Source: Burkholderiales bacterium (GTDB taxonomy: Bacteria > Pseudomonadota > Gammaproteobacteria > Burkholderiales > Burkholderiaceae_C). Taken from it: 64,000 bases of DNA. Location: the NCBI GenBank assembly GCA_947377275.1, contig CANCFV010000004.1:1-64000 (forward strand), written 5' to 3'. Under the pieces are notes generated by a model. That model had not been told where the DNA came from. It made no database searches and worked only from the letters and a program-made list of their open reading frames with translations. Numbering within the stretch: position 1 is the first letter of the stretch; every line of letters starts with the position of its first letter. A program made the position numbers and the translations under genes. Shown piece by piece: positions 13,760 through 48,889 of this stretch.

Positions 13760-14167
13760 ATGCGTAAATTGACGTTGGTGTTTTGTTTGTTCGGTGCCAT
13801 CAGCGGCCCCCTTTGGGCCCAGGCCACCGCCCCGGCAGCGTCTGCTGCGCCCCTCTACAAGGTGGTTGACGGCAACAAAGTCGACGCTGAAACCATGAAG
13901 GGCTTTCGGCTTTGGCGCGCATCGGCTTGCGACCGATGCCATGGCGCCAACCAAGAGGGCATGGTGGGGCCTTCGTTGATCAACAGCCTCAAGACCTTGA
14001 GCAAAGACGAATTCATCAAGACGGTGCGCGATGGCCGGCTTGAAAAAGGCATGCCCAATTTCGGCAACAACCCTGCCTTCATGGCCGATGTTGACGACTT
14101 GTATGCCTACCTCAAAGGCCGCTCAGACGGCGCCATCACCAAGGCGAAGGTTGAGGCCATCAAATGA
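13760..14167 (+). CDS. xoxG: Periplasmic c-type cytochrome, XoxG-like
   Basis: Signal peptide, single CDRCH heme motif, distal Met in KGMPNF; directly downstream of xoxF. Confidence 0.85.
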   Translation: MRKLTLVFCLFGAISGPLWAQATAPAASAAPLYKVVDGNKVDAETMKGFRLWRASACDRCHGANQEGMVGPSLINSLKTLSKDEFIKTVRDGRLEKGMPNFGNNPAFMADVDDLYAYLKGRSDGAITKAKVEAIK

Positions 14168-15027
14168 GCCCGCTGGCCCGCGTTGGCCTCGTGTGCATTG
14201 CCTCTGTCTTGTCCATGCACACGGCCATGGCGCAAGGCGTCAGCAGCGAGCGCAAAGCGTTCCGCGTCTGCCTTGACCCCAGCAACCTGCCCTTTGCGAA
14301 CCTGCAGGGCGAGGGCATTGAAAACAAGCTGGCCGATGTGTTTGGCAAGTCCTTGGGCTTGCCCGTCACGTACTACGCCTTCCCGCAGCGCTTTGCCTTC
14401 GTGCGCAACACGCTCAAATACAAGCTGCCCGGCGAAGAATACCCCTGCGACATCCTGATGGGTGTGCCTGTGGGTTTCGATCAGGTCTCGGTCACCAAGC
14501 CGTACTACACATCGACCTATGTGATGGTGTTTGCCCGCGGCGTGAACAAGGCCCTCGATGGCGTTGCTTCGACCGAGGACTTCCTGAAGCTGCCGCCTGA
14601 GACCTTGAAGTCATTGCGCATCGGCGTGTACGACAAATCCCCCGCTTCAGAGTGGCTGAGCAAGCACCATCTGGTTGACCAGGGGGTGCCCTATCGCATG
14701 CTCAATTCCGATCCGCAGCAGTACCCTGGCGAAATCATCGAGAAAGACCTGGCCTCTGGCAAGCTGGACGTGGCCATCGTCTGGGGCCCCATGGGTGGCT
14801 ACTTCGCCAAGAAGGTCAAAGCACCCGCATTGACGGTCGTGCCGATGGCATCAGAGCCCGGCGTCAAGTTTGACTACGCGGTTGCCATGGGCGTGCGCTA
14901 CGGTGAACGCGAGTGGAAGGCGACGATCGAGGGGCTGATCGACAAACACCGTGCGGACATCCAATCGATACTGAGCAGCTACGGTGTGCCTTTGGTGGGC
15001 GCGCCACCCTCTGCCACACCACCATGA
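14164..15027 (+). CDS. xoxJ: Quinoprotein dehydrogenase-associated periplasmic binding protein, XoxJ-like
   Basis: Signal peptide, SBP-like sequence FRVCLDPSNLPFANLQGEGIENKLADVFGKSLGLPVTYYAFPQRFAFVRNTL. 4-bp overlap with xoxG. Confidence 0.88.
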   Translation: MSPLARVGLVCIASVLSMHTAMAQGVSSERKAFRVCLDPSNLPFANLQGEGIENKLADVFGKSLGLPVTYYAFPQRFAFVRNTLKYKLPGEEYPCDILMGVPVGFDQVSVTKPYYTSTYVMVFARGVNKALDGVASTEDFLKLPPETLKSLRIGVYDKSPASEWLSKHHLVDQGVPYRMLNSDPQQYPGEIIEKDLASGKLDVAIVWGPMGGYFAKKVKAPALTVVPMASEPGVKFDYAVAMGVRYGEREWKATIEGLIDKHRADIQSILSSYGVPLVGAPPSATPP

Positions 15028-15713: not shown

Positions 15714-15723
15714 GAGATCACAC

Positions 15724-16092
15724 ATGAAAAAAGCAACTGTTTGGATGCAGATCGCCACTGGCCTGGGCTTGGGCTTGCTGTGCAGTGTCGGTGCATGGGC
15801 CAACGACTTTCCCACCAGCGAACGCGTGATCTACGTGCAGGAATGCATCAAAGCCAACCCTGGTCCTCACTTCGAAATGATCAGCAAGTGTTCGTGCGCG
15901 CTCGACACCCTGGCCGCCAAGGTGCCCTACAAAACGTATGTGGAAATGAGCACGGCCGCCAACGCCACCACGATTGGCGGTGAGCGTGGCAGCGAGATCC
16001 GAGACAACCCCTCTCTGCAAGAGTTGATCAAGACCTACAAGGGATTGCAGGCGCAGGTCAAAGCGTCCTGCTTCATCGGCGGCGTCAAATAA
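15724..16092 (+). CDS. Small secreted Cys-containing protein of unknown function in xox operon
   Basis: MKKATVWMQIATGLGLGLLCSVGAWA signal peptide; mature part has CIKANPGPHFEMISKCSCALDTLAAKVP. Confidence 0.75.
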   Translation: MKKATVWMQIATGLGLGLLCSVGAWANDFPTSERVIYVQECIKANPGPHFEMISKCSCALDTLAAKVPYKTYVEMSTAANATTIGGERGSEIRDNPSLQELIKTYKGLQAQVKASCFIGGVK

Positions 16093-20060: not shown

Positions 20061-20570
20061 TTACTTGGCAGCGAAAGGGTGCGCAGAAGCGCCCTTCTTG
20101 GCCACCACTTCAGCAGCCGTGGGCGAGCCGGTCACGGCACGCTTGATGGACTCTTTGACGGCTTGGTAGTTGTATTCCTGGATCTTGGCATCGTCGTCGG
20201 CCAACCAGTGGATGAACACGCCAACGCAAATGAACAGGTTGTCTGCTTCATCGGCGGGAATGGTGCCATCTTCCACGCAGTCAGCTACGGCCAACGCGAC
20301 ACCACGCTGGGCTGGGCCAAACATCTGAACAGCTTGTTTGGCGCCCTTGATCGTGACCTTGTTGAACATCACCGTTGCGGGCTTGGTCAACAAATTGGGG
20401 GCCACCACGGCCAACAAAGATGTGAAGCCATCCTTGTTGTTGGTCAGCGCATTGGCGAAGGCTGTTTCTGCAGCGCTGCCACGTGGCCCAATCAGCAAGT
20501 CGATGTGCGCCACTTCGTTGCCATCTCCAACGAGTGACTCACCAACCATCATGCGGTCAATTTTTGCCAT
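20061..20570 (-). CDS. fae: Formaldehyde-activating enzyme
   Basis: [60 protein letters not shown]. Confidence 0.97.
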
Positions 20571-20693
20571 GTCTCGAATCTCCAATGTGCACAGGGGGGG
20601 TTGTTTGAATGCGCCACCAGTTGGTCTGACAGCGCCGATAAAGTTACCACGAACTGAGGGGGTAGCCAAATCGAGTTAGCCATGTTATTGGCC

Positions 20694-22502: not shown

Positions 22503-23513
22503 TCAGGCTTCCTGCTGCCAGTGGTTCATCAGCAGGGGCAAGTTCATCGCGCCGCTGTGCCAGGTGTTGCCGCTGTCAAGGTTGCTGACCCACACTTCTG
22601 CAGGCGCAAAAAGACCGGGGTCGACTTTGTAGAAGTCGTAGCCGTAGTCCTTGAAGATGTCAGCAAACGGCCTGCCGTAATCTTTCGAGTGGCTCGATGG
22701 CAATTGCTTGGCCAGTTGGCGGGCAGCCTCATCACTGCCGCGAACCGACAAGTGAACCCGACCGCCATACAAGATGGCGTCATTGCTGCGCCCCATGGCC
22801 ATGGCTTGATCCACACTGGGGATCGGGAGCGGTGCCACGCCACTGCCTTCAACGATGTCTGCCAGCGGAAAGCCCAACTGGTGAACCTTGTGCATGGCGA
22901 CCTCCAGCACCCTGGCCACGACCTGGGTGGTGCCCGCCACGCTGGTGATGGGGGTCAAGACGATGGTCAATTGTTCTGGACGCAAGCCACACGCTTTCAG
23001 CACCTTGTCGATCACCACGGGCGGCGGCGGGCCATTGACCTCAAGGACCAAAGCGGTGACGCCGGCGTCGGCATCAATGTGGTCTTGATACCCCATCTCT
23101 TTCAGGATCTCTTCTTTGTTGGCCAACGCCCTGATGGGCCCAGAGCCCAGCGCAAAAAATTTCTTGCCGCCGGTTTCTTCCTTGGTGGCTTGCAAAGCCC
23201 AGCCCGCATATTGACTGGCCAGACAGGCCAACACCGGTTGTGAGCTTTTCACAGACACAGCGCTGAGCCATTCACTGCCCACCGTGCTGGGTTGAAGGTC
23301 AACCCGGCCCAAACCGCCCAGGCAAAGCGTGGCGATCAGTTGGCCCGCACCTGCACCCGCATGGGTCGCATCGATGATGCGAACGCCACTGGCATCTGTC
23401 GATTCAATCAAACCCAGGGTGTCTGCTTGCAAACTCAATCGCTTCACCAGCGATTGAACCCTTGCATTCACGCTGAGCTTGTGGCGGTGAGACATGTCGT
23501 TTGGGGGGTTCAT
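22503..23513 (-). CDS. mch: Methenyl-H4MPT cyclohydrolase
   Basis: LCLGGLGRV, GSGPIRALANKEE, DAILYGGRVHLSVRG, PADIFKDYGYDFYKVDP-type C-terminus. Start ATG at 23513 or 23495. Confidence 0.93.
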   Translation of the reverse strand: MNPPNDMSHRHKLSVNARVQSLVKRLSLQADTLGLIESTDASGVRIIDATHAGAGAGQLIATLCLGGLGRVDLQPSTVGSEWLSAVSVKSSQPVLACLASQYAGWALQATKEETGGKKFFALGSGPIRALANKEEILKEMGYQDHIDADAGVTALVLEVNGPPPPVVIDKVLKACGLRPEQLTIVLTPITSVAGTTQVVARVLEVAMHKVHQLGFPLADIVEGSGVAPLPIPSVDQAMAMGRSNDAILYGGRVHLSVRGSDEAARQLAKQLPSSHSKDYGRPFADIFKDYGYDFYKVDPGLFAPAEVWVSNLDSGNTWHSGAMNLPLLMNHWQQEA

Positions 23514-24678
23514 CGTGAGCCTCTGAATGGGGCAGCAAGGTGCTGAGCTGCCGGGCCAGTTGGTGTTGAACTTGCTGAACGCTGCTGCCGTAGGCGCTGA
23601 GGCTGCACATGGGCTGCCCCTTGTCAAAGCGCATCGCTGCAGCAGGTAGATCGTGGCAATCGGCCCTTGAGGCCCATTTGGCAATGTCCGACTCGGTGAT
23701 CAGCACCGAATGAGGTGCATACGCAATTTCAAAGCCTTCGACCTGGCTTTGTGCAGAGAGAAGATGCGCCCATGGAGGCAACTCTCCTGTCTGGCAGGCA
23801 CGCACGTGCGCGAGCATCAGGCCATCGTCACTGAGTCGGTTGGCAGGCGCCACATACAGCGCCATGCTGGCGGGCGGGCGGGGGTTGATTTCGAGCACCA
23901 GGCAGCGCTCACCGTCAAGCATGAAGTCAAGGCTGCAAAGCCCCTTCAGACCCAAAACGGGCGTCAACTTCGAGACGGCTTGGCCGATGCTCCGGCTCAC
24001 CGCTTTGCTGACGGGCACAGGCCCTATGGCGCCACAAAACACGAAGGGATGGCCACCCACCGGGCGCACGATCAATTCGTTGAAGCCGAGGATGGCCGCT
24101 TCGCGACCATTGGCCAGAAACGTCACCGACATCGGTGTGCCATCGACCCTTTTTTGAAAATAAGCGCGGTCTGTTGGCGGCTGGCCATCTGCGTCATCTG
24201 CTTCACCTGTGCCATCTGCCATGCGGATGTGCCAACCCCCACTGCCATGCGCTTGCTTGATGAGCCAATCGGTTGGTGAGTCTGGAGCGTGATGACGGGT
24301 GGGCGGGTGGTCGATGTCCAACGAAGTCAGGAGATCGAAAAACAGCACGGGGTCTTTGACCTGGCAGACGTGTTCTGCAGCGGTGCCGATCAGTGGCAGC
24401 AACTTGCTGCCCTCCCTGAGCACCTCAGGCAAGCCTTCAAAGTTGCTGCCCCCGATCCAGGCCGAAGCATCACCACTGCGCGCCAAAGAATGCAGGGTGG
24501 TCAGCACCCTTTCAGGGTCAATGCAAGCGCTTGTGGGGTGGCCTATCGGTATCCAGCGGTCTGCCGCATTCAACGTGTCGCGATCACCAAAGACGTCCAT
24601 CGCCACCGTGGTGACGTGTTCATGCAAGCCCTCGGCCATCACGCGCGCTGACAAAGCGGCTATCGCAATCGCTGGCAC
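23404..24678 (-). CDS. ATP-grasp domain protein of the H4MPT cluster
   Basis: DWLIKQAHGSGGWHIR, LKGLCSLDFMLDGERCLVLEINPRPPASMALY. The 3' end overlaps mch by ~110 bp. Confidence 0.8.
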   Translation of the reverse strand: MPAIAIAALSARVMAEGLHEHVTTVAMDVFGDRDTLNAADRWIPIGHPTSACIDPERVLTTLHSLARSGDASAWIGGSNFEGLPEVLREGSKLLPLIGTAAEHVCQVKDPVLFFDLLTSLDIDHPPTRHHAPDSPTDWLIKQAHGSGGWHIRMADGTGEADDADGQPPTDRAYFQKRVDGTPMSVTFLANGREAAILGFNELIVRPVGGHPFVFCGAIGPVPVSKAVSRSIGQAVSKLTPVLGLKGLCSLDFMLDGERCLVLEINPRPPASMALYVAPANRLSDDGLMLAHVRACQTGELPPWAHLLSAQSQVEGFEIAYAPHSVLITESDIAKWASRADCHDLPAAAMRFDKGQPMCSLSAYGSSVQQVQHQLARQLSTLLPHSEAHDEPPKRHVSPPQAQRECKGSIAGEAIEFASRHPGFD

Positions 24679-30122: not shown

Positions 30123-30202
30123 CCTCGCAAGTCATCCGGTGGTTTAATGTTTTTCGTCAGATCTACTCAGATTTGCTGATGTTCAATCAGAGACGTTCAG
30201 CC

Positions 30203-31591
30203 ATGATGGCGCCGCGACCCAAGGCCTCCCACAAGCACATGACGCCAAACACACACATTGCGCTCGCCACATCCGCCGAAGCGTCGGCGTCCACGCAGCC
30301 GTGGACCTGCCCTTTTTGTCCGCTGCTGTGCGATGCCTTCAAGGTGACTTTGGACAAGGCAGATTCCCACCTGCGCTTGAGCGGCAGTCATTGCCACCGA
30401 GCCCAATCTGCGCTGGCCACGTTCAAATCCGACGCGGCAAGCACCACGGCGACGCAGCACGGGCAAGCCTGCACCTTGGATGACGCCATCGCTGCCGCGG
30501 CACGGCTGCTGGTCGCCAGCCATCAACCCTTGTTTGGCGGTTTGGGCACCGATGTCGCGGGCGCCAGGGCCCTGTACAGGCTGGCGGCACAGACCGGTGC
30601 CATCTGCGATGCCGCTGGGGGGCGAGCTCAAATGGACGGCCTGCGCGCCCTGCAAGACCGTGGCGCTTTCACGACCAGCTTGGCCGAAGTGCGCACCCGT
30701 GCCGATGTGATCGTGTGTTTGGGTGGCTGGCCTACCCAGCGCTACCCGGAGTTTTTCAATCGCTGCGGCGTCGGTGAGGCGCTGGTCAAGCGGCGCGATG
30801 TGGTGGTCTTGGGCGCCCAGCCCTCAGATGCCCCTGACGTTTGGGCGGCCTTGAGCGCCGCGCCTGGCGTGACCGTGAGCTGCCTGCCCTGGCATGGCGA
30901 TGCATTCACCACCTTGCAATGCCTGTCGGCTTTGGTGGCCGGGCGTGCCGTGCCCGAGGCGCCCGAGGCCTTGTCGGCCTTGGCCGCGCAATTGCGGGCG
31001 GCGACCTACGGTGTCATGGCTTACCAAACCTACGCCTTGCCCGAGCAGGGTGCATTGATCGTGGAAGCCGCCAACCACCTGGTCGGTCAGCTCAACCAGC
31101 ACACACGTGCCGCCACCTTGGCCCTGGGCGGCGACGATGGCGCCAACACCGTGAACCAGGTCATGACGTGGACGTCGGGTTTACCCTTGAGGTCGCGCGC
31201 TGGCCCCTTGGGGCTGGAACACGACCCCTTGTGCTTTGACGCGGCCACCTTGCTGGCAGACCACGCCGTGGACGCGCTGCTGTGGGTGTCGAGTTTCGGT
31301 GCGACACAGAAGCCGCCCACCTCTCCGCCGGGCCGCGCTGTGCCAACGGTGGTGTTGGGGCATCCAGATTTGGCCTCATCTGATGCGGATGTGTTCATCC
31401 CGGTGGCCACACCGGGTGTGGATGTGGCAGGGCATTTGTTCAGAACCGACAGCGTGGTGCTGATGCCGCTCAGCCCAGTGCATGCACGCCCGCCCAGCGG
31501 TTTGCCGACCGTGCATGACATGCTCGACCGGCTCTCACACGCTGTGACGGCTTTGCGTGCTGCCGCCACACCGCCTCAGGAGGCGCCATGA
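30203..31591 (+). CDS. fhcB: Formyltransferase/hydrolase complex subunit B (formylmethanofuran dehydrogenase B-like)
   Basis: WTCPFCPLLCDAFKV...; first gene of a tightly overlapping fhcBADC block. Alternative starts at 30206 or 30239. Confidence 0.85.
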   Translation: MMAPRPKASHKHMTPNTHIALATSAEASASTQPWTCPFCPLLCDAFKVTLDKADSHLRLSGSHCHRAQSALATFKSDAASTTATQHGQACTLDDAIAAAARLLVASHQPLFGGLGTDVAGARALYRLAAQTGAICDAAGGRAQMDGLRALQDRGAFTTSLAEVRTRADVIVCLGGWPTQRYPEFFNRCGVGEALVKRRDVVVLGAQPSDAPDVWAALSAAPGVTVSCLPWHGDAFTTLQCLSALVAGRAVPEAPEALSALAAQLRAATYGVMAYQTYALPEQGALIVEAANHLVGQLNQHTRAATLALGGDDGANTVNQVMTWTSGLPLRSRAGPLGLEHDPLCFDAATLLADHAVDALLWVSSFGATQKPPTSPPGRAVPTVVLGHPDLASSDADVFIPVATPGVDVAGHLFRTDSVVLMPLSPVHARPPSGLPTVHDMLDRLSHAVTALRAAATPPQEAP

Positions 31592-33288
31592 GCACGACCA
31601 TCCGGCTGCGCGGTGGCCGCGTCATCGACCCAGCCCAAAGCCACAGCGGCACACAGCGCGATGTGTGCCTGCGTGATGGCCGCATCATCGACCTGGACGA
31701 GCGCGAGGCCGTTGACGAGACCTTCGACGCGACAGGCTGCGTGATCATGGCCGGCGGCATCGACATGCACACGCACATCGGCGGCGGCAAGATGAACCTG
31801 GCCCGCATGCTGCTGCCCGAAGACCATCGCGCCAATGCCGGCAGCCCCATTGCCTTGCCAGACAACGCGCTGGAGCTGGCTTCGTGCGGCACCTGCACGC
31901 CGGGCACACTGGCCACGGGCTACCGCTACATTGAAATGGGCTACACCTCGGCGTTCGAGCCCGCCATGATGGCGGCCAACGCCCGGCACGCGCACATGGA
32001 GATGGGCGACATCCCCATCCTCGACCACGGCGCTTACGTGATGCTGGGCAACGACGAGCTTTTCTTGCAGATGCTGCACGAGGGCGGCGAGCAGGGGCTC
32101 AACCAGGCTTTGATCCGAGACTACGTGGGCTGGACCCTCAACGCCTCCAAAGCCATGGGCGTGAAGGTGGTGAACCCAGGGGGCATCTCCGCCTTCAAGT
32201 TCAACCAGCGCAAACTGGACGTCAACGAGGTGCACACGCATTGGCAGGTCACGCCCCGCCAGGTGGTGCATTCGCTGGCGCGGGCGCTGCGCGAACTGGG
32301 TGTGCCTCACCCGTTGCACATCCACGGCAGCAACCTGGGCGTGGCGGGCAACATCGAATCCACCTTAGAGACCATCGCCGCACTCGAAGGACTGCCCGCG
32401 CACCTGACGCACATCCAGTTCCACGCCTATGGCAAAGAGGGGCCGAAGAAGTTCTCTTCAGCCGCTTTGCAAGTCGCCGAAGCGGTGAACGCCAACCCGA
32501 ACATCAGCATCGACGTGGGCCAGATCATGTTTGGTCAAACGGTGACGGCTTCGGGCGACACCATGCGCCAGTTCGCCAACTCAGGGCATGGCAGCCCGCG
32601 CAAATGGGTGGGCGCCGACCAGGAATGCGATGCAGGCTGCGGCGTGGTGCCGTTTCGCTACCGCGAGCAGAGCTATGTGAATGCCCTGCAGTGGGCCATC
32701 GGCCTGGAGATCTTCTTGCTGGTCAAGAACCCGTGGCAGGTGGTGCTCACCACCGACCACCCCAATGGCGGGCCCTTCACCAGCTACCCGCACCTGATCC
32801 GTCTGCTCACTGACAAGTCGTTCAGAGACGAGCAACTCAGCAAGCTCCACCCAGACGTGGCCTCGACCAGTGCACTGCGCGAGATCAGCCGCGAGCTGAC
32901 GCTGGACGAAGTCGCCATCATGACCCGCTCGGCGCCTGCCCGCCTGCTGGGGCTGACTGACAAAGGCCATCTGGGCCAAGGTGCCGTGGCCGATGTGGCC
33001 GTGTACCGCGAAGAGGCCAACCATGAAGCCATGTTTGCGACGCCACAGTGGGTGTTCAAAAACGGCAGCTTGGTGGCCCAGGCGGGCAAGGTCATGGCCG
33101 TGCCCACAGGCGGCAGCCATTTCCTGACACCCGACTACGACACGGCCGTTGAGCGCACTTTGCGCAAGCATTGGGCCGCGCACGGGTCGGTCAATTTTGA
33201 CCACGTGCCCATCAGCCGCGACGAGCTCTGCAGTTGTTGCAATGGGGGGCGCTTGCTGCCCACCGCTTGTTTCCAAGGGCAAACATGA
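31588..33288 (+). CDS. fhcA: Formyltransferase/hydrolase complex subunit A (amidohydrolase)
   Basis: IRLRGGRVIDPAQ, GGIDMHTHIGGGKMNLARMLLPEDHR, PHPLHIHGSNLGVAGN, TTDHPNGGPFTSYP. Confidence 0.95.
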   Translation: MSTTIRLRGGRVIDPAQSHSGTQRDVCLRDGRIIDLDEREAVDETFDATGCVIMAGGIDMHTHIGGGKMNLARMLLPEDHRANAGSPIALPDNALELASCGTCTPGTLATGYRYIEMGYTSAFEPAMMAANARHAHMEMGDIPILDHGAYVMLGNDELFLQMLHEGGEQGLNQALIRDYVGWTLNASKAMGVKVVNPGGISAFKFNQRKLDVNEVHTHWQVTPRQVVHSLARALRELGVPHPLHIHGSNLGVAGNIESTLETIAALEGLPAHLTHIQFHAYGKEGPKKFSSAALQVAEAVNANPNISIDVGQIMFGQTVTASGDTMRQFANSGHGSPRKWVGADQECDAGCGVVPFRYREQSYVNALQWAIGLEIFLLVKNPWQVVLTTDHPNGGPFTSYPHLIRLLTDKSFRDEQLSKLHPDVASTSALREISRELTLDEVAIMTRSAPARLLGLTDKGHLGQGAVADVAVYREEANHEAMFATPQWVFKNGSLVAQAGKVMAVPTGGSHFLTPDYDTAVERTLRKHWAAHGSVNFDHVPISRDELCSCCNGGRLLPTACFQGQT

Positions 33289-34229
33289 GCGAAGCCATGC
33301 AAGCACCCCTGATCCGCAATGGCGTCACCATTGACGACGGTTTTGCTGAGGCCTTCCCCATGAAGGCCACGCGCATCGTCATCACCGCCATCAACCCCAC
33401 CTGGGCCATGCACGCGGCCACGGCGGCCTCTGGTTTTGCCACCTCGGTGATTGCCTGCGGATGTGAGGCGGGCATTGAGCGGCTGCTGGGCCCGCATGAA
33501 ACCCCCGATGGCCGGCCCGGCGTGAGCGTGTTGCTGTTTGCCATGTCGGGCAAAGAGCTGGGCAAGCAGCTGGAACGCCGCGTGGGCCAATGCGTGCTGA
33601 CCTGCCCCACCACGGCTGTGTTCGCGGGCATTTCTGAGGGTGAGGCGCTGCCGCTTGGCAAGAACCTGCGCTTCTTCGGCGATGGCTGGCAGATGTCCAA
33701 GGTGATCAATGGGCAGCGTTACTGGCGCATCCCCGTGATGGACGGCGAGTTCGTGGCCCAAGAAACCACGGCCATCACCAAGGCGGTTGGCGGTGGCAAC
33801 CTGCTCTTGCTCGCACGCGATACTGAATCGGCTTTGGCTGCGGCCGAGGCGGCTGTGGCCGCGATGAAGCTTGTTCCCGATGTGATCATGCCGTTCCCAG
33901 GTGGCGTGGTGCGTTCAGGCTCCAAGGTGGGCAGCAAGTACCCGGCGCTCAACGCGTCCACCAACGATGCCTTCTGCCCCAGCCTGTATGGCCTGACGAA
34001 GCGCAGTGAACTCACCCCAGAGACCCGTTGCGTGATGGAGATCGTCATCGATGGATTGACTGAGGCCTCCGTGGCCCGCGCCATGCGTGTGGGCATGGAC
34101 GCCTGCATCACCATCGGCGCAGCAGGTGGCTTGCTGCGCATCTCGGCTGGCAACTACGGCGGCAAGCTGGGGCCTTATCACTTCCATCTGCACAAGCTGA
34201 TGGACGACACCCAAGGAGGCCAGGCATGA
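33285..34229 (+). CDS. fhcD: Formylmethanofuran--H4MPT formyltransferase
   Basis: NGVTIDDGFAEAFPMKATRIVITA, CPTTAVFAG, GRTYW-type RYWRIPVMDGEF, VMPFPGGVVRSGSKVGSKY. Confidence 0.95.
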   Translation: MSEAMQAPLIRNGVTIDDGFAEAFPMKATRIVITAINPTWAMHAATAASGFATSVIACGCEAGIERLLGPHETPDGRPGVSVLLFAMSGKELGKQLERRVGQCVLTCPTTAVFAGISEGEALPLGKNLRFFGDGWQMSKVINGQRYWRIPVMDGEFVAQETTAITKAVGGGNLLLLARDTESALAAAEAAVAAMKLVPDVIMPFPGGVVRSGSKVGSKYPALNASTNDAFCPSLYGLTKRSELTPETRCVMEIVIDGLTEASVARAMRVGMDACITIGAAGGLLRISAGNYGGKLGPYHFHLHKLMDDTQGGQA

Positions 34230-35075: not shown

Positions 35076-36065
35076 ATGTCGACGGATGCCATGCCAGAGG
35101 CGCCTCAGGGGCGCCTGACGCCCACCCCATCAGACCGTTTCCCAGCCACCTTCTCGGCCATCCTGCGCGACATGCTCATGTTGTGCGCGTTGGCGGTGCT
35201 GTTCTTCATCGCAGCATCTCAGTTCGAGCTGTTTGAGATCGTCACACGGGCAACCCACCGCTATGAGCACTGGCAACTCGATGAACTGCCGCTGACCTTG
35301 TTGGTGCTGTCTGTGGGACTGAGCTGGTTTGGTTGGCGCAGGGTGCGCGAGATCCGCTCAGAGTTGACCGAGCGTGTGCGTGCGCAAACGCAGGTCGCTC
35401 AGTTGCTTGCCCACAACCGAGAACTGCTGCAACGCTTGATCACCGTGCAGGAAAGCGAGCGCCGCGCCCTGGCGCGTGAACTGCACGACGAGCTGGGCCA
35501 GCATTGCACGGCCATGCGCGCAGAGGCAAGCTTCATTGGCCAGGCGGGCGGGCCAGAGGGCGTCACGCAGAGTGCATCGCGCATCGCGCAATCGGCCAGC
35601 ACTTTGTATGGCCTGGTCAATGGCATGTTGCGGCGCCTGCGGCCCCCCGCGCTTGACAGCCTGGGGCTGTCACCCGCCCTGCTGGAGTTGTGCGACACCT
35701 GGGCCAAGCAAACCGGCCTGACCTGCAGGTTCGAGGCTCCAGATGTGCCGCAGGTGCTGGGCGATGCGACGGCGGTGACCCTCTTCCGCCTCGTGCAGGA
35801 GGCGCTGACCAATGTGGCCCGCCATGCCGATGCCACGCAGGTCTGGGTGAGCCTGCGACTCGATGGGTCAAACCATCGCTTGTGCCTGAGTGTGAAGGAC
35901 AACGGCTGCGGCATGGCGCAAACCGACGGCACCGTGAGCGGCCTGGGCTTCGTCGGCATGCGTGAACGCGTGGCGGCCTTGCAAGGGCGCATTGAATGGC
36001 GGAGTCAGCCCGGACATGGCGTGCAGATCGACGTGTCTCTGCCATACCCGGAGATCACACCATGA
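35076..36065 (+). CDS. Sensor histidine kinase, NarL/UhpB (HisKA_3) type
   Basis: Two predicted TM segments, ESERRALARELHDELGQHCTAMRAE, LVQEALTNVARHADATQ, DNGCGM. Confidence 0.92.
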   Translation: MSTDAMPEAPQGRLTPTPSDRFPATFSAILRDMLMLCALAVLFFIAASQFELFEIVTRATHRYEHWQLDELPLTLLVLSVGLSWFGWRRVREIRSELTERVRAQTQVAQLLAHNRELLQRLITVQESERRALARELHDELGQHCTAMRAEASFIGQAGGPEGVTQSASRIAQSASTLYGLVNGMLRRLRPPALDSLGLSPALLELCDTWAKQTGLTCRFEAPDVPQVLGDATAVTLFRLVQEALTNVARHADATQVWVSLRLDGSNHRLCLSVKDNGCGMAQTDGTVSGLGFVGMRERVAALQGRIEWRSQPGHGVQIDVSLPYPEITP

Positions 36066-36715
36066 TCCGCGTGGCCTTGATCGATGACCACCCCGTGGTG
36101 CGCATGGGCTACCGCCAGTTGGTCGAACAAACAGGCAACATCTGTGTGGTGCTGGAGGCGAGCAATGCCGAAAGCGCGTACCCGCTGCTGCTGCAAGTTC
36201 AACCCGATGTGTGCGTGACCGACTTGTCGATGCCAGGTTCAGGTGGCCTGGCCTTGCTGCGCAAAATGGTGGCACGCCAGCAAGCGGGACACAGTGCCTG
36301 CAAGATGCTGGTGTTCAGCATGCACGATTCAGCACCCCTGGTGCAACAAGCGCTGTCTGGTGGCGCGCACGGTTTTGTCAGCAAACAGGCCGAACCCCAG
36401 GACTTGATCGAGGCGATCCGCGTGGTTCATCGCGGCGGCACCTACTTCGGTACAGAGGTGTCTGGCGCGGGTAGCGCGTCATCCGCGGTGACGGACGAGA
36501 CCGCCAATTTGGCCAGCCTCAGCCCGCGTGAGTTCGAGATTTTCAGGTTGCTGGCTCAGGGACTGTCGCCGGGCGATTGTGCCCATCGCCTTTGCCTCAG
36601 CCCCAAAACGGTGGCCAATCACCAGACCCAGATCAAAGAAAAGCTGGGCGTGGCCACGTCAGCGGCGTTGGTGCATCTGGCGATACGCAATGGCGTCATC
36701 GCCAGTCATGAATGA
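36062..36715 (+). CDS. LuxR/NarL-type response regulator
   Basis: VALIDDHPVVRMGYRQLV, CVTDLSMPGSGG, C-terminal LSPREFEIFRLLAQGLS...LSPKTVANHQTQIKEKLGV. ATGA overlap with the kinase. Confidence 0.93.
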   Translation: MIRVALIDDHPVVRMGYRQLVEQTGNICVVLEASNAESAYPLLLQVQPDVCVTDLSMPGSGGLALLRKMVARQQAGHSACKMLVFSMHDSAPLVQQALSGGAHGFVSKQAEPQDLIEAIRVVHRGGTYFGTEVSGAGSASSAVTDETANLASLSPREFEIFRLLAQGLSPGDCAHRLCLSPKTVANHQTQIKEKLGVATSAALVHLAIRNGVIASHE

Positions 36716-36740: not shown

Positions 36741-39116
36741 TCACAGGCTGTAGCGCAGGCCCAGCCACACATTGCGCGGTGCGCCAGGAGCGTAAAACGT
36801 TGTGCTGGTGTCTTTGCTGTTGCGGAATCCGCCAGCGGCATCGAATGCTTCGGGGCCCAGCTGTCCGGCCGTGCTGTAGCGACGGTCAAACAAGTTGTTG
36901 ACATTGGCCAGCAACTGCAAACGCGCGGTGGTTTTGTAGCTGCCCGACCAGTTCAGCACCGCGTAGCCAGGCGCACGCCCTGAACCAAGGTGGTCGACCC
37001 CATCGGCCTGATGCCGGTTGTTTTCGTTGCCGCGCACAAAACTGCCGCTCACGGCCACCATCTCCAACCCCACCCGCCAGTCGGCCCCAGGTGCGTAGGC
37101 CACATTGGCTTTGAGCAGGTGATCGGGCATCAAGGGCAGCCGGTCGCCGCGATGCACGGCAATGTGGCCATCGGCATCGGCGGTGCTGTTGTAATCGGCG
37201 CCCACGGTTTCGTCAGATTGGTAGGTGGCTTGCAGGTAGGTGTAGTTCACGCCCCAGCTCACCGCCCCAAACACACTCGACCAAGCCGCCTCGACGCCTT
37301 GACGGCGGGTTTGACCAAAGTTCTTGAAGTAGCCGGTGGAGGCCGTGTTCGCCACGAACTGGATGTCGTCGTGGTTGTCGCCCCTGAACAGCCCGACACT
37401 CCAGCGGGTTTGGCCAGGCAACTTGCCCCTCAAGCCCATCTCCCATGTTTTGGACACCACCTGCTCCAGCGGCGGATCGCCCGCCATGGCGTTGGGCAGG
37501 CGGCAGCCAAAGTTAGGGTCGGCGCAACCCAGCTCCACCGAGGTGGGCGCACGGCTGCTCTCGCTGTAGCCTGCGTAGGCGTTGACGCTCTTGCTCGGGG
37601 TGAAGCTCACACCCAGCGCAGGATTGAAGCGCCGAAACGCATGGTTGCCATCGAGTGAGCCACGTTGCTCACCCTGGGTGGTCGCGTTGTTGTAGGGGTA
37701 GAGCTTGTCGGTGTTGTGCAAGCGCGTGTCGTTGAAACGCCCTGATGCGGTGATGTGCCAGGTGTCGGCAATGGAGAGGGTGTCGGTGCCAAACACGCTC
37801 CATGTGCGCACATGGCCATCGAGGTTCACACGCTGGTCGAACGCGTCTGCCGAGTTTTGCGTGCCATCGGCAAACGCATCCACCGGGCTGATGGAGCGAT
37901 CCGGGTTCAGGTCGCCAAACTGTGCGGCTTGCCGGAAGTTCAGCTTGCTGGCGTCGTAGGCCATGCCCACCGCAGCCTGGTTGCGATGCCCCAGCAGGTC
38001 GTCGGTGAAGGTCAGTTGCCCAGACATTCCCAAGTTGCTCTGCCGGGTGCGCGTGGTGTTGATGAGGCCTGTGGAGACACCCGTTTGGCCCAGTGCCGCT
38101 TCGTTCAAGTCGCCATTGAGCGTTTTCGTGGTGGTGTGCCGCCAATACACATTGCCTGAGGCCTTGACCGAGCTGGACAACTCGGTGGCGCCACGCAAGT
38201 TGAACACGCTGGCCACATTGCCTGTGTTGTCCGGCTTGGTGAAGACGCTGTTGTAGCGCTGTGCCAGCAACTGCTCTTGTTGCAAGCCGTTGCCGACCAA
38301 GGCATTGTTGGCGTAGGTGTAAGTCAAAGCCGCATCGCTTTTGGCGTCTTTCCAACCCACCTTGCCAAACAACTGGCCCACGCGGGACGGTGAGTCGTCG
38401 CGCCAGCCGTCTTCGCGGTAGGCGGTGGCGGTGGTGAACCAGTCCAGGCCTTTGTCATTGGTGCCGCCATGTTCAAGGCCCAAGCTGGTGCGCCCATGTT
38501 GGCCAAGCGAGGCTTCAAGCACGGTGCCAGGGTGGGTCTCGCCACTTTTGGTTTCAATGGACAGCGCGCCACCCAAGGTGTTCAGGCCGAACAGCGGGTT
38601 GGCGCCCGACATCAGCGTGACCGACGAAATCGCGGCCTTGGGGATCAAGTCCCACAAGACCACGTCCCCAAAGGCCTGGTTCATGCGCACGCCATCGACG
38701 TACACCGACAAGCCCTGCGGCGTGCCCAGCAGCGGCGAGGCGCTGTAGCCGCGGTAATTCACGTCCGCCATGAACGGGTTGCTTTGTACCTCGTTGATGT
38801 GCACGCTGCCGAGGTTGCGGTTCAGCAAATCGGCGAGGTCGAGCGCGCTGCTCTTTTCAATGTCCTTGGATCGGATCACCTGCACAGCGGCCGGGATTTG
38901 TTCGCGCGAGAGGCTCAAGCCAGGCAAGGGCGTGATGCCGGTGACGGTCACTTCGGGCAGCGTGGCTTCCACCGGATTGGCTTGCGCGCCGACCGTCGCC
39001 GGCCACGCTGCGGCGGCCACCACCGCTGTGGCCCAGCGGGCAGCGCTTGACGTGGCGCGTTCGGTCGCGATCGAGCCAACCTGAGGCTTGGCGGACAGAT
39101 GCAGCGGCTTTGGCAA
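36741..39116 (-). CDS. TonB-dependent outer-membrane receptor (candidate lanthanophore/metal receptor)
   Basis: TonB-box-like LPEVTVTG, plug domain QIPAAVQVIRSKDIEKSSALDLADLLNRNLGSV, beta-barrel C-terminus ending WLGLRYSL. TTG start at 39116 preceded by AGGAGA. The ATG ORF extends to 39248. Confidence 0.88.
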   Translation of the reverse strand: MPKPLHLSAKPQVGSIATERATSSAARWATAVVAAAAWPATVGAQANPVEATLPEVTVTGITPLPGLSLSREQIPAAVQVIRSKDIEKSSALDLADLLNRNLGSVHINEVQSNPFMADVNYRGYSASPLLGTPQGLSVYVDGVRMNQAFGDVVLWDLIPKAAISSVTLMSGANPLFGLNTLGGALSIETKSGETHPGTVLEASLGQHGRTSLGLEHGGTNDKGLDWFTTATAYREDGWRDDSPSRVGQLFGKVGWKDAKSDAALTYTYANNALVGNGLQQEQLLAQRYNSVFTKPDNTGNVASVFNLRGATELSSSVKASGNVYWRHTTTKTLNGDLNEAALGQTGVSTGLINTTRTRQSNLGMSGQLTFTDDLLGHRNQAAVGMAYDASKLNFRQAAQFGDLNPDRSISPVDAFADGTQNSADAFDQRVNLDGHVRTWSVFGTDTLSIADTWHITASGRFNDTRLHNTDKLYPYNNATTQGEQRGSLDGNHAFRRFNPALGVSFTPSKSVNAYAGYSESSRAPTSVELGCADPNFGCRLPNAMAGDPPLEQVVSKTWEMGLRGKLPGQTRWSVGLFRGDNHDDIQFVANTASTGYFKNFGQTRRQGVEAAWSSVFGAVSWGVNYTYLQATYQSDETVGADYNSTADADGHIAVHRGDRLPLMPDHLLKANVAYAPGADWRVGLEMVAVSGSFVRGNENNRHQADGVDHLGSGRAPGYAVLNWSGSYKTTARLQLLANVNNLFDRRYSTAGQLGPEAFDAAGGFRNSKDTSTTFYAPGAPRNVWLGLRYSL

Positions 39117-39274
39117 AAAAGTCTCCTGAGTGAGGATGGAAAGCAGGCGTGCAAAGTGCACCATCAATGCTTGTGCAGTATCCAAAGCAACCGGGCCTTC
39201 CATCCAGGGAAAAACTCCCGTCAATGGCTGGGCGTGCTGTTTTAGCAACCTGGCCGCGCCAGGGGGAAACGGCA

Positions 39275-39361: not shown

Positions 39362-39760
39362 ATGAAAAAACTGCTTTTGACCTGCATGCTGGCGTTGCCC
39401 ATGGTGGGCGCCGTCGCGGCCGATGCCACCCTGACTGATGAACAGGTTGGCGCGGCCTTCAAAAAGGCCGACAAGAACGGCGATGGCACCTTGAGCAAGG
39501 CCGAGGCACGCGCCTTCGGGATCACCTCAAAGGTGTTCATGACCGCCAACCCCGACAAAGATGGCACGCTCGATACCAAAGAGTTTGCTGCCGCGATGGC
39601 GATTCGCTTCCATGCTGCCAACCCCGACAAAGACGGCACGCTGGACTGGAAAGAAGCGCGCAAGGCCGGCGTGAAGTCCAAGAAGGCGTTTGAAGGCGCC
39701 AACCCGGACAAAGACGGATCTCTCGACTTGGCCGAGTACGTGGCCGCCTTGGCCGAGTAA
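39362..39760 (+). CDS. Secreted lanmodulin-like four-EF-hand protein (132 aa)
   Basis: Signal peptide MKKLLLTCMLALPMVGAVAA. Loops DKNGDGTLSKAE, NPDKDGTLDTKE, NPDKDGTLDWKE, NPDKDGSLDLAE; inter-loop spacing 14, 12 and 15 residues; Pro at position 2 and Asp at position 9 in loops 2-4. Confidence 0.85.
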   Translation: MKKLLLTCMLALPMVGAVAADATLTDEQVGAAFKKADKNGDGTLSKAEARAFGITSKVFMTANPDKDGTLDTKEFAAAMAIRFHAANPDKDGTLDWKEARKAGVKSKKAFEGANPDKDGSLDLAEYVAALAE

Positions 39761-39777: not shown

Positions 39778-39806
39778 CCTCAGTCGATCACCGCGATCGA
39801 CTGAGG
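39778..39806. terminator. Perfect hairpin between convergent EF-hand and beta-propeller genes
   Basis: CCTCAGTCGATC-accgc-GATCGACTGAGG: 12-bp perfect stem, 5-nt loop, includes the propeller stop codon; no T-tract. Confidence 0.6.
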
Positions 39807-40919
39807 GGCCTTGCCCACCGTCACGGTTTGCAGCACCTTGAAGGTGCTTGTGTCGACCACCGTGACGTCGTCAGACAAGCCGCCCGCGGCCATCAGCACC
39901 GTGCCTGCGCTGTTCAGGCCAACCCCCCAGACCCGCTTGCCCGCAGGCACGAGTGCCTTGACCGTTCGGCTGGGCACATCGATCACCGCCACATGGTTGG
40001 CACGGCCCAGGCCCACGTACATCGTTTTGCCGTCTGGTGAGGCTTGCAAGCCTGCGGGCAATGGCGGCGACGGCCACCCATCGGCCGGCATGATGCGCAG
40101 CGTGTGCACAACCACGAGATCCTGCGTGTCGATCACGCTCAGGGTGCCTTCGAGTTCATTGCTGACCCAGAGTTCTTTGCCGCCAGCGGCCAGGGCCAGT
40201 CGTCGTGCGCGCTTGCCAGCGGGGATCTTCTTGATGACCACGCCCTTGGCCACGTCGACCACCGCGACGTGGTGCTCCGCTTCTGATGCGACAAAAACGT
40301 ACTTGCCATCGGCAGACACAGCCACGCCCTCAGGCTCTCCGCCCACTGCGACGCGCTGCACCACCTTGGCTTTGGCGATGTCCAAAATGAGGAGTTCGCC
40401 GCTGTCTTCGCTGGAGATGAACAAGTGCTTGCCGTCGGGCGAGATGTCGAACAGTTCTGGGTCGTGACCACCCGGCAGCCGCCCCAATGACTGGCCAGTC
40501 GCTGGGTCGATCACGTCGATCTGATCGTCGCTGCTGCAAGCCACGTACAAGCGCTCAGATTTGTAGGCTTGCACATGGCGAGGCCGCTTGCAGGTGGCCA
40601 CCGTGGCCTTGATGGCCCACGTGCGGTCGTCCAGCACGGTGAGCGTGTTGTCTTTCTCGTTGGCCACCCACACCGAGTGGGCGCCAAATGACGCAGGAGA
40701 GGCAGCGGGCGCCACAGACGCCACAGACGGCGCCTTGGTTGGCGCGGCATCAGCGCCGGCCGACAACGTGGCCGCACCGACATTCGCCCAGGCAACGATG
40801 TTGATGCTCACGCCCGTCAGGACGGTGCCCAACACCAGGCACAGCCTGTGTTGAAGGCCATGTGGGACCGTTTGGCCCCGGCGAACCGCGCAGCGGGCTG
40901 GTGCTTTGTTGGGCGTCAT
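39780..40919 (-). CDS. YVTN-type beta-propeller protein, PQQ-dependent catabolism-associated type
   Basis: Repeated blades: VWVANEKDNTLTVLDDRTW, GGHDPELFDISPDGKHLFISSEDSGELLILD, GGEPEGVAVSADGKYVFVASEAEHHVAVVDV; secreted. Confidence 0.85.
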   Translation of the reverse strand: MTPNKAPARCAVRRGQTVPHGLQHRLCLVLGTVLTGVSINIVAWANVGAATLSAGADAAPTKAPSVASVAPAASPASFGAHSVWVANEKDNTLTVLDDRTWAIKATVATCKRPRHVQAYKSERLYVACSSDDQIDVIDPATGQSLGRLPGGHDPELFDISPDGKHLFISSEDSGELLILDIAKAKVVQRVAVGGEPEGVAVSADGKYVFVASEAEHHVAVVDVAKGVVIKKIPAGKRARRLALAAGGKELWVSNELEGTLSVIDTQDLVVVHTLRIMPADGWPSPPLPAGLQASPDGKTMYVGLGRANHVAVIDVPSRTVKALVPAGKRVWGVGLNSAGTVLMAAGGLSDDVTVVDTSTFKVLQTVTVGKAPQSIAVID

Positions 40920-45738: not shown

Positions 45739-46659
45739 ATGCACATTACCGTATTGGGAGCGGCCGCTGGTGGCGGCTTTCCTCAGTGGAACTGCAATTG
45801 CCGCAACTGTGATGGCGTGCGCAAAGGCAGCATCCGCGCCAAGGCCCGCACGCAGTCGTCCATTTTCGTGCAGCCAGATGCGGGCGCAGACGGCGTGTTG
45901 TTCAACGCCTCGCCTGACATCCTGGAGCAAATCCGGGCCAAGCCTGCGCTGCAGCCCGGCCGCCAGCTGCGCGACACTGCCATCGCGGGTGTGGTGCTGA
46001 TGGACGGCCAGATTGACCACGCCACCGGCCTGTTCATGCTCCGTGAGCGCGCAACGCCACTGCCGCTGTGGTGCACAGACCCGGTCGAAGAAGACCTCAC
46101 CCAGGGCAACCCCGTGCTGCGGGTGCTGAGCCACTACTGCGGCGTCAAGCGCCACCGCATTGCGCTGGATGGCATGCCGTTTGAGATTCCCGGAGTGGCC
46201 CACCTGAGCTTTCGCGCCATGCCGCTGTCCAGCAAAGCGGCGCCCTATTCGCCGCACCGCGAACAATCGGTGGCGGGCGACAACATTGGCATCACCATCA
46301 CCGACGAGCGCAGCGGCAAGAAGCTGTTTTACGCGCCGGGCCTGGGCGACATCACCCCCGCCGTGTTCGACGCCATGGCGAGCGCCAACGGCGTGATGGT
46401 GGACGGCACCTTCTGGACGGACGACGAAATGGTGCGACTGGGCATCAGCCGCAAGCACGCCCGCGAGATCGGTCACTTGCCGCAGTCTGGCCCCGGCGGC
46501 ATGGTCGAGTGGCTGGATCGCCTGCCGCCCGACACCCGGCGCTTGCTGATCCACATCAACAACACCAACCCCATCCTCGACGAGGATTCCAATGAGCGTG
46601 CCACGCTGGCTCGCCACGCCATTGAAGTCTGCGAAGACGGCATGCTGATCGAGGTTTGA
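45739..46659 (+). CDS. pqqB: PQQ biosynthesis protein B
   Basis: [47 protein letters not shown]. Confidence 0.97.
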
Positions 46660-46663
46660 AACG

Positions 46664-47428
46664 ATGCGCGCTGACATGATCTTGGCCAACACCTCGTCCA
46701 CTTCAGCTTCGGCCCCCGCCTGGAGCCCCAGCGAGTTTGAAGCCCAGCTGCGGGAGCGCGGCAAGGCTTATCACATCCACCACCCCTACAACGTGATGCT
46801 CAACACGGGCAAAGCCTCGGTCGAGCAAATCAAGGGCTGGGTGGCCAACCGCTTTTATTACCAGATCGCCATCCCCATCAAGGACGCAGCGGTGATGTCC
46901 AACTGCCCCGACCAGGCGGTGCGCCGCGGCTGGATCCAACGCATCCTGGACCACGATGGCTTCGAGATCAGCGGGCCAGAAGGCACGGTGCGTGACGCAG
47001 GCGGCATCGAAGCCTGGCTGCGTTTGGCTGAGGCCGTGGGCTTGAGCCGCGAAGAGGTGCTGGACCAGCGCCACGTCATCCCCGCCGTGCGTTTCGCAGT
47101 GGATGCCTACGTGAACTTCGCGCGCCGAGCACCTTGGCAAGAAGCCGTGTGCTCATCGCTGACCGAACTGTTTGCCCCCGAGATCCACAAGCAAAGGCTG
47201 GCGACCTGGCCTGAGCATTACGCCTGGATCAACGCCGATGGTCTGAGTTACTTCCGCAACCGCGTCAGCCAAGCGCGCCGCGATGTGGACCAGGGCCTGG
47301 CCATCACGCTGGGGCACTTCACCACCCGGGCGCAGCAAGAGCGTGCGCTGGAGGTTTTGCAGTTCAAGCTCGACATCCTTTGGGCGCTGAGCGACGCCAT
47401 GGTCACGCGCTACGGAGTGAACCCATGA
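46664..47428 (+). CDS. pqqC: Pyrroloquinoline-quinone synthase
   Basis: [48 protein letters not shown]. Confidence 0.97.
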
Positions 47429-47703
47429 GCAGCCCACTGACCGCCGACACCGTGCCGCGCGTCGGGCCAGGCTTTCGGCTGCAATGGGAAGTGGCGCAAA
47501 ACTGCCATGTGTTGCTTTATCCTGAAGGCATGGTCAAGCTCAACCAAACAGCAGGCGAAATCATGAAGCGTTGCGACGGCCAACAAAGCCTGCAAGCCAT
47601 CGTGGCAGATTTGGAAAAGGCCTTTGATGCCACCGGCCTTCAGGGCGATGTGCAGGCCTTCATCGAGATGGCCCACAAGCAGCGCTGGTTGACCTGGAAC
47701 TGA
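47425..47703 (+). CDS. pqqD: PQQ biosynthesis peptide chaperone
   Basis: [46 protein letters not shown] overlap with pqqC. Confidence 0.95.
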
Positions 47704-47710
47704 ACACGCC

Positions 47711-48889
47711 ATGAGCGTCCTCACCAGCACCCAGAACACCTCTCCCTCGCGCCCAGGCCCGCCGCTTTGGCTGCTGGCCGAAGTGACCTACCGCTGCCCT
47801 TTGCACTGCGTGTTTTGCTACAACCCGGTCGACTTTGCTCGCCAGGAAGATGAGCTCTCCACCGAGGACTGGAAGCGTGTGCTGCAAGAGGGCCGCGCCA
47901 TGGGGGCCGTGCAGTTGGGCTTGTCTGGCGGTGAACCTCTGGTGCGCGATGACCTGGAAGAGATCGTGGCCGAGGCGCACCGCCTGGGCTTCTACACCAA
48001 CCTGCTGACATCTGGCGTGGGCTTGACCGCGCAGCGGGCGGCAGCGCTCAAAGCAGCGGGCCTGGACCACGTGCAGCTGTCCTTCCAGGACTCCACCCGG
48101 GAGATGAACGACTTCCTCTCGCACACCAAAACCTTCGAGCTCAAGAACCGCGTCGCCAAGATCATCAAAGACCAAGGCTGGCCCATGGTCATGAACGTGG
48201 TGATCCACCGCATGAACATCGACCACATCGATCGCATCATCGGCATGGCCCATGAGTTCGGTGCCGAGTACCTTGAGCTGGCCAACACACAGTACTACTC
48301 GTGGGCCATGGTCAACCGCGACCAGTTGCTGCCCACCCATGCCCAGCTGCAGCACGCCGAAGCTGTCACCGACGCATGGCGAGCCAAGCTGGGTGAGGAC
48401 ATGCGCATCTTCTTTGTGGCGCCTGACTACCATGAGGGCCGCGCCAAGAAGTGCGTCAACGGCTGGGGCAACATGTTCATCACCGTCGCGCCCGATGGCA
48501 CCGCCTTGCCCTGCCACACCGCGCGCATGCTGCCTGGCCTGAGCTTCCCCAGCGTCAAAGACCACAGCCTCGAGCACATCTGGTACGAATCAGAAGGCTT
48601 CAACCGTTACCGCGGCACGGGCTGGATGAAAGAGCCGTGCACCAGCTGTGAGCACCGTGAGGCCGACTTGGGCGGCTGCCGCTGCCAAGCCTATATGCTG
48701 GCGCAAGACCCGGCTGCAGCCGATCCTGTGTGCATCAAAAGCCCACACCATCACGAGGTCAAAGCCGCTGTGGCGCAAGCAGAGGCACAAGCCCTGGTGC
48801 GTGCACAAGCCAACACCAGTGGCATACAGGGTGAGCACCCGCTGGTCTTCCGAGACCCGGCCAATTCTTTGCGTTTGAGCAAAGTTTGA
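47711..48889 (+). CDS. pqqE: PQQ biosynthesis radical SAM enzyme
   Basis: CPLHCVFCYNPVDF radical SAM motif; C-terminal Cys-rich CTSCEHREADLGGCRCQAYML. Confidence 0.97.
   Translation: MSVLTSTQNTSPSRPGPPLWLLAEVTYRCPLHCVFCYNPVDFARQEDELSTEDWKRVLQEGRAMGAVQLGLSGGEPLVRDDLEEIVAEAHRLGFYTNLLTSGVGLTAQRAAALKAAGLDHVQLSFQDSTREMNDFLSHTKTFELKNRVAKIIKDQGWPMVMNVVIHRMNIDHIDRIIGMAHEFGAEYLELANTQYYSWAMVNRDQLLPTHAQLQHAEAVTDAWRAKLGEDMRIFFVAPDYHEGRAKKCVNGWGNMFITVAPDGTALPCHTARMLPGLSFPSVKDHSLEHIWYESEGFNRYRGTGWMKEPCTSCEHREADLGGCRCQAYMLAQDPAAADPVCIKSPHHHEVKAAVAQAEAQALVRAQANTSGIQGEHPLVFRDPANSLRLSKV

Follow-up and report, generated by a model that had tools for sequence, protein, structure and literature searches.

The locus raises the question of whether a small EF-hand protein encoded in a methylotrophy island of a Burkholderiales bacterium is a lanmodulin and, if so, of which kind. 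The window, i.e., the whole stretch of 64,000 nucleotides that was analyzed, contains a gene that the original prediction had described as encoding a secreted protein of 132 amino acids with four EF loops. The open reading frame and the loops were found exactly as described, and the following features were assigned:

39362..39760, + strand: phase-shifted lanmodulin-like EF-hand protein, 132 amino acids, ATG start (open reading frame, Pfam, NCBIfam and PDB search)
39362..39421, + strand: Sec-type signal peptide MKKLLLTCMLALPMVGAVAA, predicted by eye
39470..39505, + strand: EF loop 1 DKNGDGTLSKAE, without Pro2 and with Ser9
39548..39583, + strand: EF loop 2 NPDKDGTLDTKE
39584..39619, + strand: linker between EF2 and EF3, 12 residues, modelled as one fused helix (residues 72-86), resembling the canonical EF3-EF4 linker
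39620..39655, + strand: EF loop 3 NPDKDGTLDWKE
39701..39736, + strand: EF loop 4 NPDKDGSLDLAE

The Pfam family EF-hand_1 matched the protein with an E-value of 1.5e-18, and homologues of equal length and spacing are present in other genera with 57-63% identity, showing that this is not a chance reading frame. The GC3 of 0.77 was in line with the adjoining genes. The N-terminus reads by eye as a Sec signal peptide, in agreement with the predicted secretion, and the protein is thus probably exported to the periplasm; the confidence of the AF2 model was below 50 across these residues (1-20). Loops 2-4 are of the NPDKDG(T/S)LD type, with Asn1, Pro2 and Asp9, and the inter-loop gaps are 14, 12 and 15 residues; Pro2, Asp9 and the gaps had been predicted exactly so. 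EF1 is a textbook calcium loop and has neither Pro2 nor Asp9. When the hallmarks of lanmodulin (PMC10232371) were applied, the protein had four EF-hand motifs in fewer than 200 residues and Pro2 in at least one EF hand, namely in EF2, EF3 and EF4, but its gaps of 14, 12 and 15 residues differ from the 12-13 residues expected between adjacent EF hands. It also differs from the calmodulin type, which has about 24-25 residues between EF hands and no Pro2.

When the PDB was searched by sequence, the top four matches were Mex-LanM (6mi5, 4.4e-19, and 8fns, 1.2e-18), a lanthanum-bound protein of Ancylobacter (9pi2) and Hans-LanM (8dq2), the last with a weaker match of 1.3e-8. Calmodulins were found at E-values of about 1e-6, about 12 orders of magnitude behind the lanmodulins. 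Best matches consisting entirely of calcium-binding EF-hand proteins, the outcome that the original prediction had named as speaking against it, did not occur, as lanmodulins came first. The top NCBIfam model was also that of lanmodulin (LanM, NF053806, an equivalog model), with an E-value of 1.7e-23 and 83.2 bits, which is below its cut-off of 135. The AF2 model, a metal-free model from a two-sequence alignment, had a pLDDT of about 93 over the EF region and the expected helices, i.e., one long helix between EF2 and EF3 (residues 72-86), and a pair of short helices both between EF1 and EF2 and between EF3 and EF4. In a fold search with this model, Mex-LanM 8fns came first by TM-score among the 50 structures listed, with 0.57 by target and 0.47 by query, and calmodulin-like proteins reached at most 0.41. 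The E-values of this fold search could not tell the two apart: those of calmodulin-like proteins began at 6e-5, Mex-LanM had 3e-4, and many calmodulin-like proteins ranked above it. The fold comparison is therefore drawn from the TM-scores only.

The frequency of the loop type was analyzed with a degenerate DNA pattern for [DN]P[DN]xDG[ST]xD, which was searched in 398 genomes of the order and matched in five. EF-hand loops were among these matches only in the window's own protein and in one canonical lanmodulin (G207); of the other three matches, two belong to DAHP-synthase-like proteins and one (G204, L013) to a long frame that does not have the character of an EF hand. With the pattern in just five of 398 genomes, and in EF hands in only two, the Pro2/Asp9 motif is not background. 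A short distance between EF hands is not in itself diagnostic, since ordinary EF pairs 13-15 residues apart without Pro2 are present in the same genomes (L053-L059) and since L008 has a spacing of 12-15-12 without Pro2. The L008 protein (4268-4657), from a Rhodospirillales MAG, has calcium-type loops and reached 52.6 bits with the LanM model; it is possibly a calcium relative of lanmodulin.

These ordinary pairs, the textbook calcium loop of EF1, the Pfam call of EF-hand as the only family and the score under the LanM cut-off are what would be expected of an ordinary bacterial calcium-binding EF-hand protein, in which the Pro2/Asp9 loops and the short spacing are incidental. We regard this explanation as very improbable, because lanmodulins match so far ahead of calmodulin, because the Pro2/Asp9 loops are kept in the relatives described next and are nearly absent elsewhere in the order, and because of the lanM-type gene neighborhood and the presence of XoxF in all genomes that encode these relatives.

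Close relatives were searched for in 400 genomes of the window's GTDB family and were found in G000 (the window's own genome), G047, G632, G636, G703 and G761, i.e., a clade of six members from four genera. The G761 copy appears to be the same as L007 from an uncultured Methylibium MAG, and the G703 copy is without its N-terminus because the contig ends there, with all four loops present. The spacing was 14-12-15 in all six members. Loops 2 and 3 had Asn1, Pro2, Asp3, Asp5 and Asp9 in 6/6, loop 4 had Asn1 and Pro2 each in 5/6 and Asp9 in 6/6, and Asp3, Asp5, Asp9 and Glu12 were conserved in EF2-4. Loop 1 had Pro2 in four of the six members, so that the calcium-like EF1 represents a local divergence in the window protein, and only L019 has something similar. 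The odd EF1, which had been described as unusual together with Asn1 in the other three loops, is therefore not a feature of the clade.

A search of 41 further species from the genus of the window did not find the clade protein, and it was present in three of six Methylibium-group genomes. The 399 genomes sampled from the phylum contained, besides the window, canonical LanMs only, and a contig scan with the single protein yielded just two proteins, the close relative L007 and a distant EF protein. A plasmid collection had one partial Methylobacterium match, and the search in E. coli gave no match. The group has thus so far been found only in the window's GTDB family. Mis-binning of the contig was examined with trpD, which lies on the same contig: it was 81-88% identical to that of most species of the same genus, with 74% as the lowest value among full-length matches, and identity to other families of the order did not exceed 71%. 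The contig is therefore consistent with the genome.

The loop order was compared with that of 20 canonical LanMs, 17 from outside the order (taken as Alphaproteobacteria) and three from Burkholderiales (L021, L022 and L034). The spacing was constant inside each group, 12-13/14-12 in 20 of 20 canonical proteins and 14-12-15 in the clade, and the canonical linker order (short fused, longer, short fused) was in the opposite phase in all six clade members. Read from the sequences, 14-12-15 is the canonical alternation displaced by one EF hand, in the manner of a circular permutation. The short spacing that had been taken as a lanmodulin trait is thus not to be read as a relaxed form of 12-13-12. 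When the linkers were compared alone, the EF2-EF3 linker of the clade scored 1.58 BLOSUM62 units per residue with the canonical EF3-EF4 linker, and only 0.06 with the canonical EF2-EF3 linker. In addition, on inspection by eye, the EF1-EF2 linker of the clade (FGIS..AF; FGIT in the window protein) is similar to the linker that joins EF2 and EF3 in two LanMs from Burkholderiales, L022 and L021 (LGIS..AF or LGIS..DF).

Most matches of the clade profile to canonical proteins were also shifted by one EF hand, with EF1-3 of the clade over EF2-4, and without gaps in L021 and L022, which are canonical LanMs of the same family. This shifted gapless alignment had 46-54% identity over 70 columns. Clade EF2-4 on canonical EF1-3 was also seen, as a two-hand repeat would lead one to expect. 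If the clade protein were simply a divergent orthologue of the canonical one, with EF1-4 corresponding to EF1-4 and small linker indels as the source of 14-12-15, this would explain why each group has four EF hands and a similar length, and also why, over the full length, the best score was that of a gapped 1:1 profile alignment between the groups (E=1.4e-28, 91 columns). However, the near-identical loops dominate this score, and the 1:1 loop matching was not accepted, whereas the linker sequences match out of phase and the 70 shifted columns need no gap. The orthologue is therefore an unlikely explanation.

An independent origin, in which an ordinary EF pair with a spacing of 14 was doubled and the loops converged on the lanmodulin type, would fit the identity of 44-67%, with a one-residue indel, between EF1-2 and EF3-4 of one and the same clade protein, and single EF pairs about 14 residues apart are common in these genomes. 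Against it, canonical LanMs of the same family match comparably well, and the gene neighborhood is shared with canonical lanM. In the phylogeny of the shifted 70-column core, a check that had been proposed for the locus, the clade was monophyletic (100/99) and was placed next to L021 and L022, but with weak support for this position (73/77). Because canonical LanM itself resembles a doubled pair, the two origins are not cleanly separable; a doubling appears improbable to us. Taken together, the linkers and the shifted profile matches make both groups look cut from one alternation of fused-helix and two-helix linkers, in opposite phase. This is what a circular permutation, or loss plus gain, would produce, and circular permutation is the presumed route.

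The shift also bears on the curated model. Five clade proteins tested with NF053806 reached 79-92 bits, all under the cut-off of 135, and the three canonical Burkholderiales LanMs reached 146-160 bits, so that the cut-off separates the two groups. The low scores have a structural cause, namely the spacing of 14-12-15, one EF hand out of phase, and the present curated model misses such proteins. The clade is lanmodulin-like, but it lacks two of the features tested, the spacing of 12-13 residues throughout and the curated score.

The gene is embedded in a methylotrophy island, and this island, to which a betaproteobacterial character had been ascribed, proved to be real. The following features were assigned:

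11841..13658, + strand: XoxF-type PQQ methanol dehydrogenase with the motif DEWDFDG
13760..14167, + strand: c-type cytochrome, in the position of XoxG
14164..15027, + strand: XoxJ/MoxJ-like periplasmic binding protein (TIGR03871)
20061..20669, - strand: formaldehyde-activating enzyme Fae
22503..23684, - strand: methenyl-H4MPT cyclohydrolase Mch
30173..34229, + strand: fhcB-, fhcA- and fhcD-like formylmethanofuran genes
35076..36065, + strand: sensor histidine kinase (HisKA_3)
35996..36715, + strand: LuxR-type response regulator
36741..39248, - strand: TonB-dependent receptor, divergent neighbor of the lanmodulin-like gene
39780..40919, - strand: YncE-like/PQQ-catabolism-associated beta-propeller, convergent neighbor (TIGR03866-like, just below the cut-off)
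45739..48889, + strand: pqqB, pqqC, an open reading frame of pqqD size, and pqqE

An MptN-like ligase is also present in the window. The lanmodulin-like gene lies between the divergent receptor and the convergent propeller, with the kinase/regulator pair beyond the receptor. The second Asp of the XoxF motif marks lanthanide enzymes, and the Asp at +2 in DEWDFDG is this lanthanide Asp. The window XoxF is the sole match to TIGR03075 in its own genome, which is 87% complete, and thus no MxaF was seen in it; with a single XoxF and no MxaF found, methanol use may be obligately lanthanide-dependent. A close XoxF was not found in five sampled species of the window's genus. Since both XoxF and the EF-hand protein are missing from sampled congeners, the island may have been acquired recently, or have been lost in the relatives. 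Two further open reading frames of 266 and 132 amino acids follow the XoxJ-like gene (14913-16092), the second of which appears by eye to be exported; neither had a Pfam or NCBIfam family at the thresholds used.

XoxF was present in 6/6 clade genomes, compared with a background of 11% in the family (45/400 genomes). The hypergeometric probability of this co-occurrence was 1.5e-6 by genome and 7e-4 by genus, and the latter is the fairer value because the genomes are related. One clade member (L028) has the same set as the window, i.e., TonB receptor, kinase/regulator pair and YncE-like propeller, and another (L029) has a kinase/regulator pair, a receptor and H4MPT-type genes nearby. In a third member, L027, no methylotrophy gene or such neighbors were found within about 10 kb. 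G047 has three TonB receptors, which are 66-77% identical to one another and lie within 12 kb near the phase-shifted gene (L025, 6025-17657). The same genome contains a truncated second copy with EF3-EF4 only (L026, about 10815-11000), directly upstream of a second XoxF homologue that is 58% identical to the window XoxF, with a kinase/regulator pair also beside it.

The neighborhood was compared with canonical lanM loci from outside the order. In one of them (L066) propeller, lanM, receptor, kinase and regulator are found in a row, and in a second (L060) receptor and propeller adjoin the gene. In five others (L061-L065) neither receptor, kinase/regulator pair nor propeller was found within the stretch taken. 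When the L060 receptor was searched against the window's genome, the window receptor was the best match (197+145 bits), and the next one had 27 bits. The clade thus has the genomic association with XoxF and lanthanide-uptake-type genes that is used as a further criterion for lanmodulins. The nearest solved relative of the window receptor was the PQQ receptor PqqU/YncD, at low similarity (E about 6e-16), and its cargo may be either a lanthanide complex or PQQ. A canonical Burkholderiales LanM of G645 (L030, 6651-12033) was seen between two PQQ alcohol dehydrogenase-like genes.

The best matches in the PDB and the neighbors of the canonical lanM type support the proposed lanmodulin homolog or analog, and a LanM-like function, as a phase-shifted sister group of lanmodulin, is likely. 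Our reading of the locus as a whole, to which we assign a probability of roughly 80%, is that it encodes a lanthanide-binding periplasmic protein of this sister group near XoxF, with the loop order shifted by one EF hand; the earlier interpretation as a whole is partly supported. According to the proposed mechanism, the lanthanide would enter the periplasm via the neighboring TonB-dependent receptor and would be bound by the EF-hand protein through loops 2-4, and perhaps loop 1. The protein would fold upon binding, and would buffer the ion or hand it on near XoxF, the sole detected PQQ alcohol dehydrogenase. The alternating linkers begin in the opposite phase, with two-helix linkers between EF1/EF2 and EF3/EF4 and the fused helix between EF2 and EF3. 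Lanthanide binding, selectivity, and a role in shuttling or buffering are thus what the sequence and its neighbors suggest. La induces lanM in Methylobacterium aquaticum, where a TonB receptor and the two-component system mxcQE regulate the gene; deletion of lanM left methanol growth unimpaired and led to periplasmic La deposition and aggregation (PMC9260416). As loss of lanM left methanol growth intact there, buffering is at least as likely as delivery.

The conserved Asn1 of the clade appears to point both ways with respect to affinity. It is a feature of the weak EF4 of Mex-LanM, where the exchange N108D raised the Gd stoichiometry from 2.2 to 3.8 (PMC11561317). It is also present in the metal-bound EF1-3 of the tight binder Hans-LanM, with an apparent Kd of 68-91 pM (PMC10232371), where it is paired with Glu9, not Asp9. 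A weak lanthanide binder, or a partner protein such as a chaperone or sensor input, would thus agree with Asn1 in EF2-4 and with an EF1 that has neither Pro2 nor Asp9. We consider it doubtful, because Hans-LanM responds at picomolar concentrations with the same residue and because Asp3, Asp5, Asp9 and Glu12 are conserved in EF2-4. A lanthanide-binding sister-group protein could even be a natural circular permutant in the full sense, i.e., a tight, lanthanide-selective protein with the EF repeat cut elsewhere, and with a selectivity, set by Asn1/Pro2/Asp9, unlike that of Mex- and Hans-LanM; this is quite possible, although we would not count on it.

LanM is already known in Betaproteobacteria, from Derxia lacustris (PMC12482762). 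In the literature collection that was searched, no paper was found on a lanmodulin with circular permutation or on a lanmodulin in Methylibium, and the papers that name lanmodulin and Burkholderiales together did not, in the parts consulted, describe such a phase-shifted group. A published collection of 696 LanMs used a laxer filter, one EF pair less than 14 residues apart, which is satisfied by EF2-EF3 of the window protein; since this filter would admit 14-12-15 proteins, some clade members may sit unremarked in the collection. Lanmodulins are among the leading biological means of capturing and separating rare earths, and to our knowledge the characterized lanmodulins all share one chain order. 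A shifted sister group with Asn1/Pro2/Asp9 loops would separate loop chemistry from fold in lanthanide selectivity, and the clade would extend lanthanide handling in Burkholderiales past the canonical LanMs.

Among the known systems, Mex-LanM of Methylorubrum extorquens (6MI5, 8FNS; NF053806) is likewise a small exported four-EF protein with Pro2/Asp9 loops, short linkers and a methylotrophy setting. It differs in its spacing of 12-13-12 as opposed to 14-12-15, and the window protein has Asn1 in three loops, a calcium-like EF1, and 83 bits versus the cut-off of 135. Hans-LanM of Hansschlegelia quercus (8DQ2) shares Asn1 in the metal-binding loops and has, too, diverged from Mex-LanM, but it has Glu9 where the window protein has Asp9, and three of the four window loops carry Pro2. 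The canonical Burkholderiales LanMs (L021/L030, L022/L031 and L034) are from the same order or family; their spacing is 12-14-12, and in spite of the one gap of 14 they are over the LanM cut-off. Calmodulin and generic bacterial EF pairs have the EF-hand motif in common with the window protein, as well as the pairing of EF1/EF2 and EF3/EF4 that is expected from its linkers, but calmodulin has a spacing of about 24 residues and no Pro2/Asp9. The lanM-TonB-two-component loci of methylotrophs (the lut cluster, and tonB_Ln/mxcQE of Methylobacterium aquaticum) resemble the window in the receptor, the two-component pair and the YncE-like propeller around lanM, as in L066, and differ from it in gene order and orientation and in the receptor, which is only about 31% identical.
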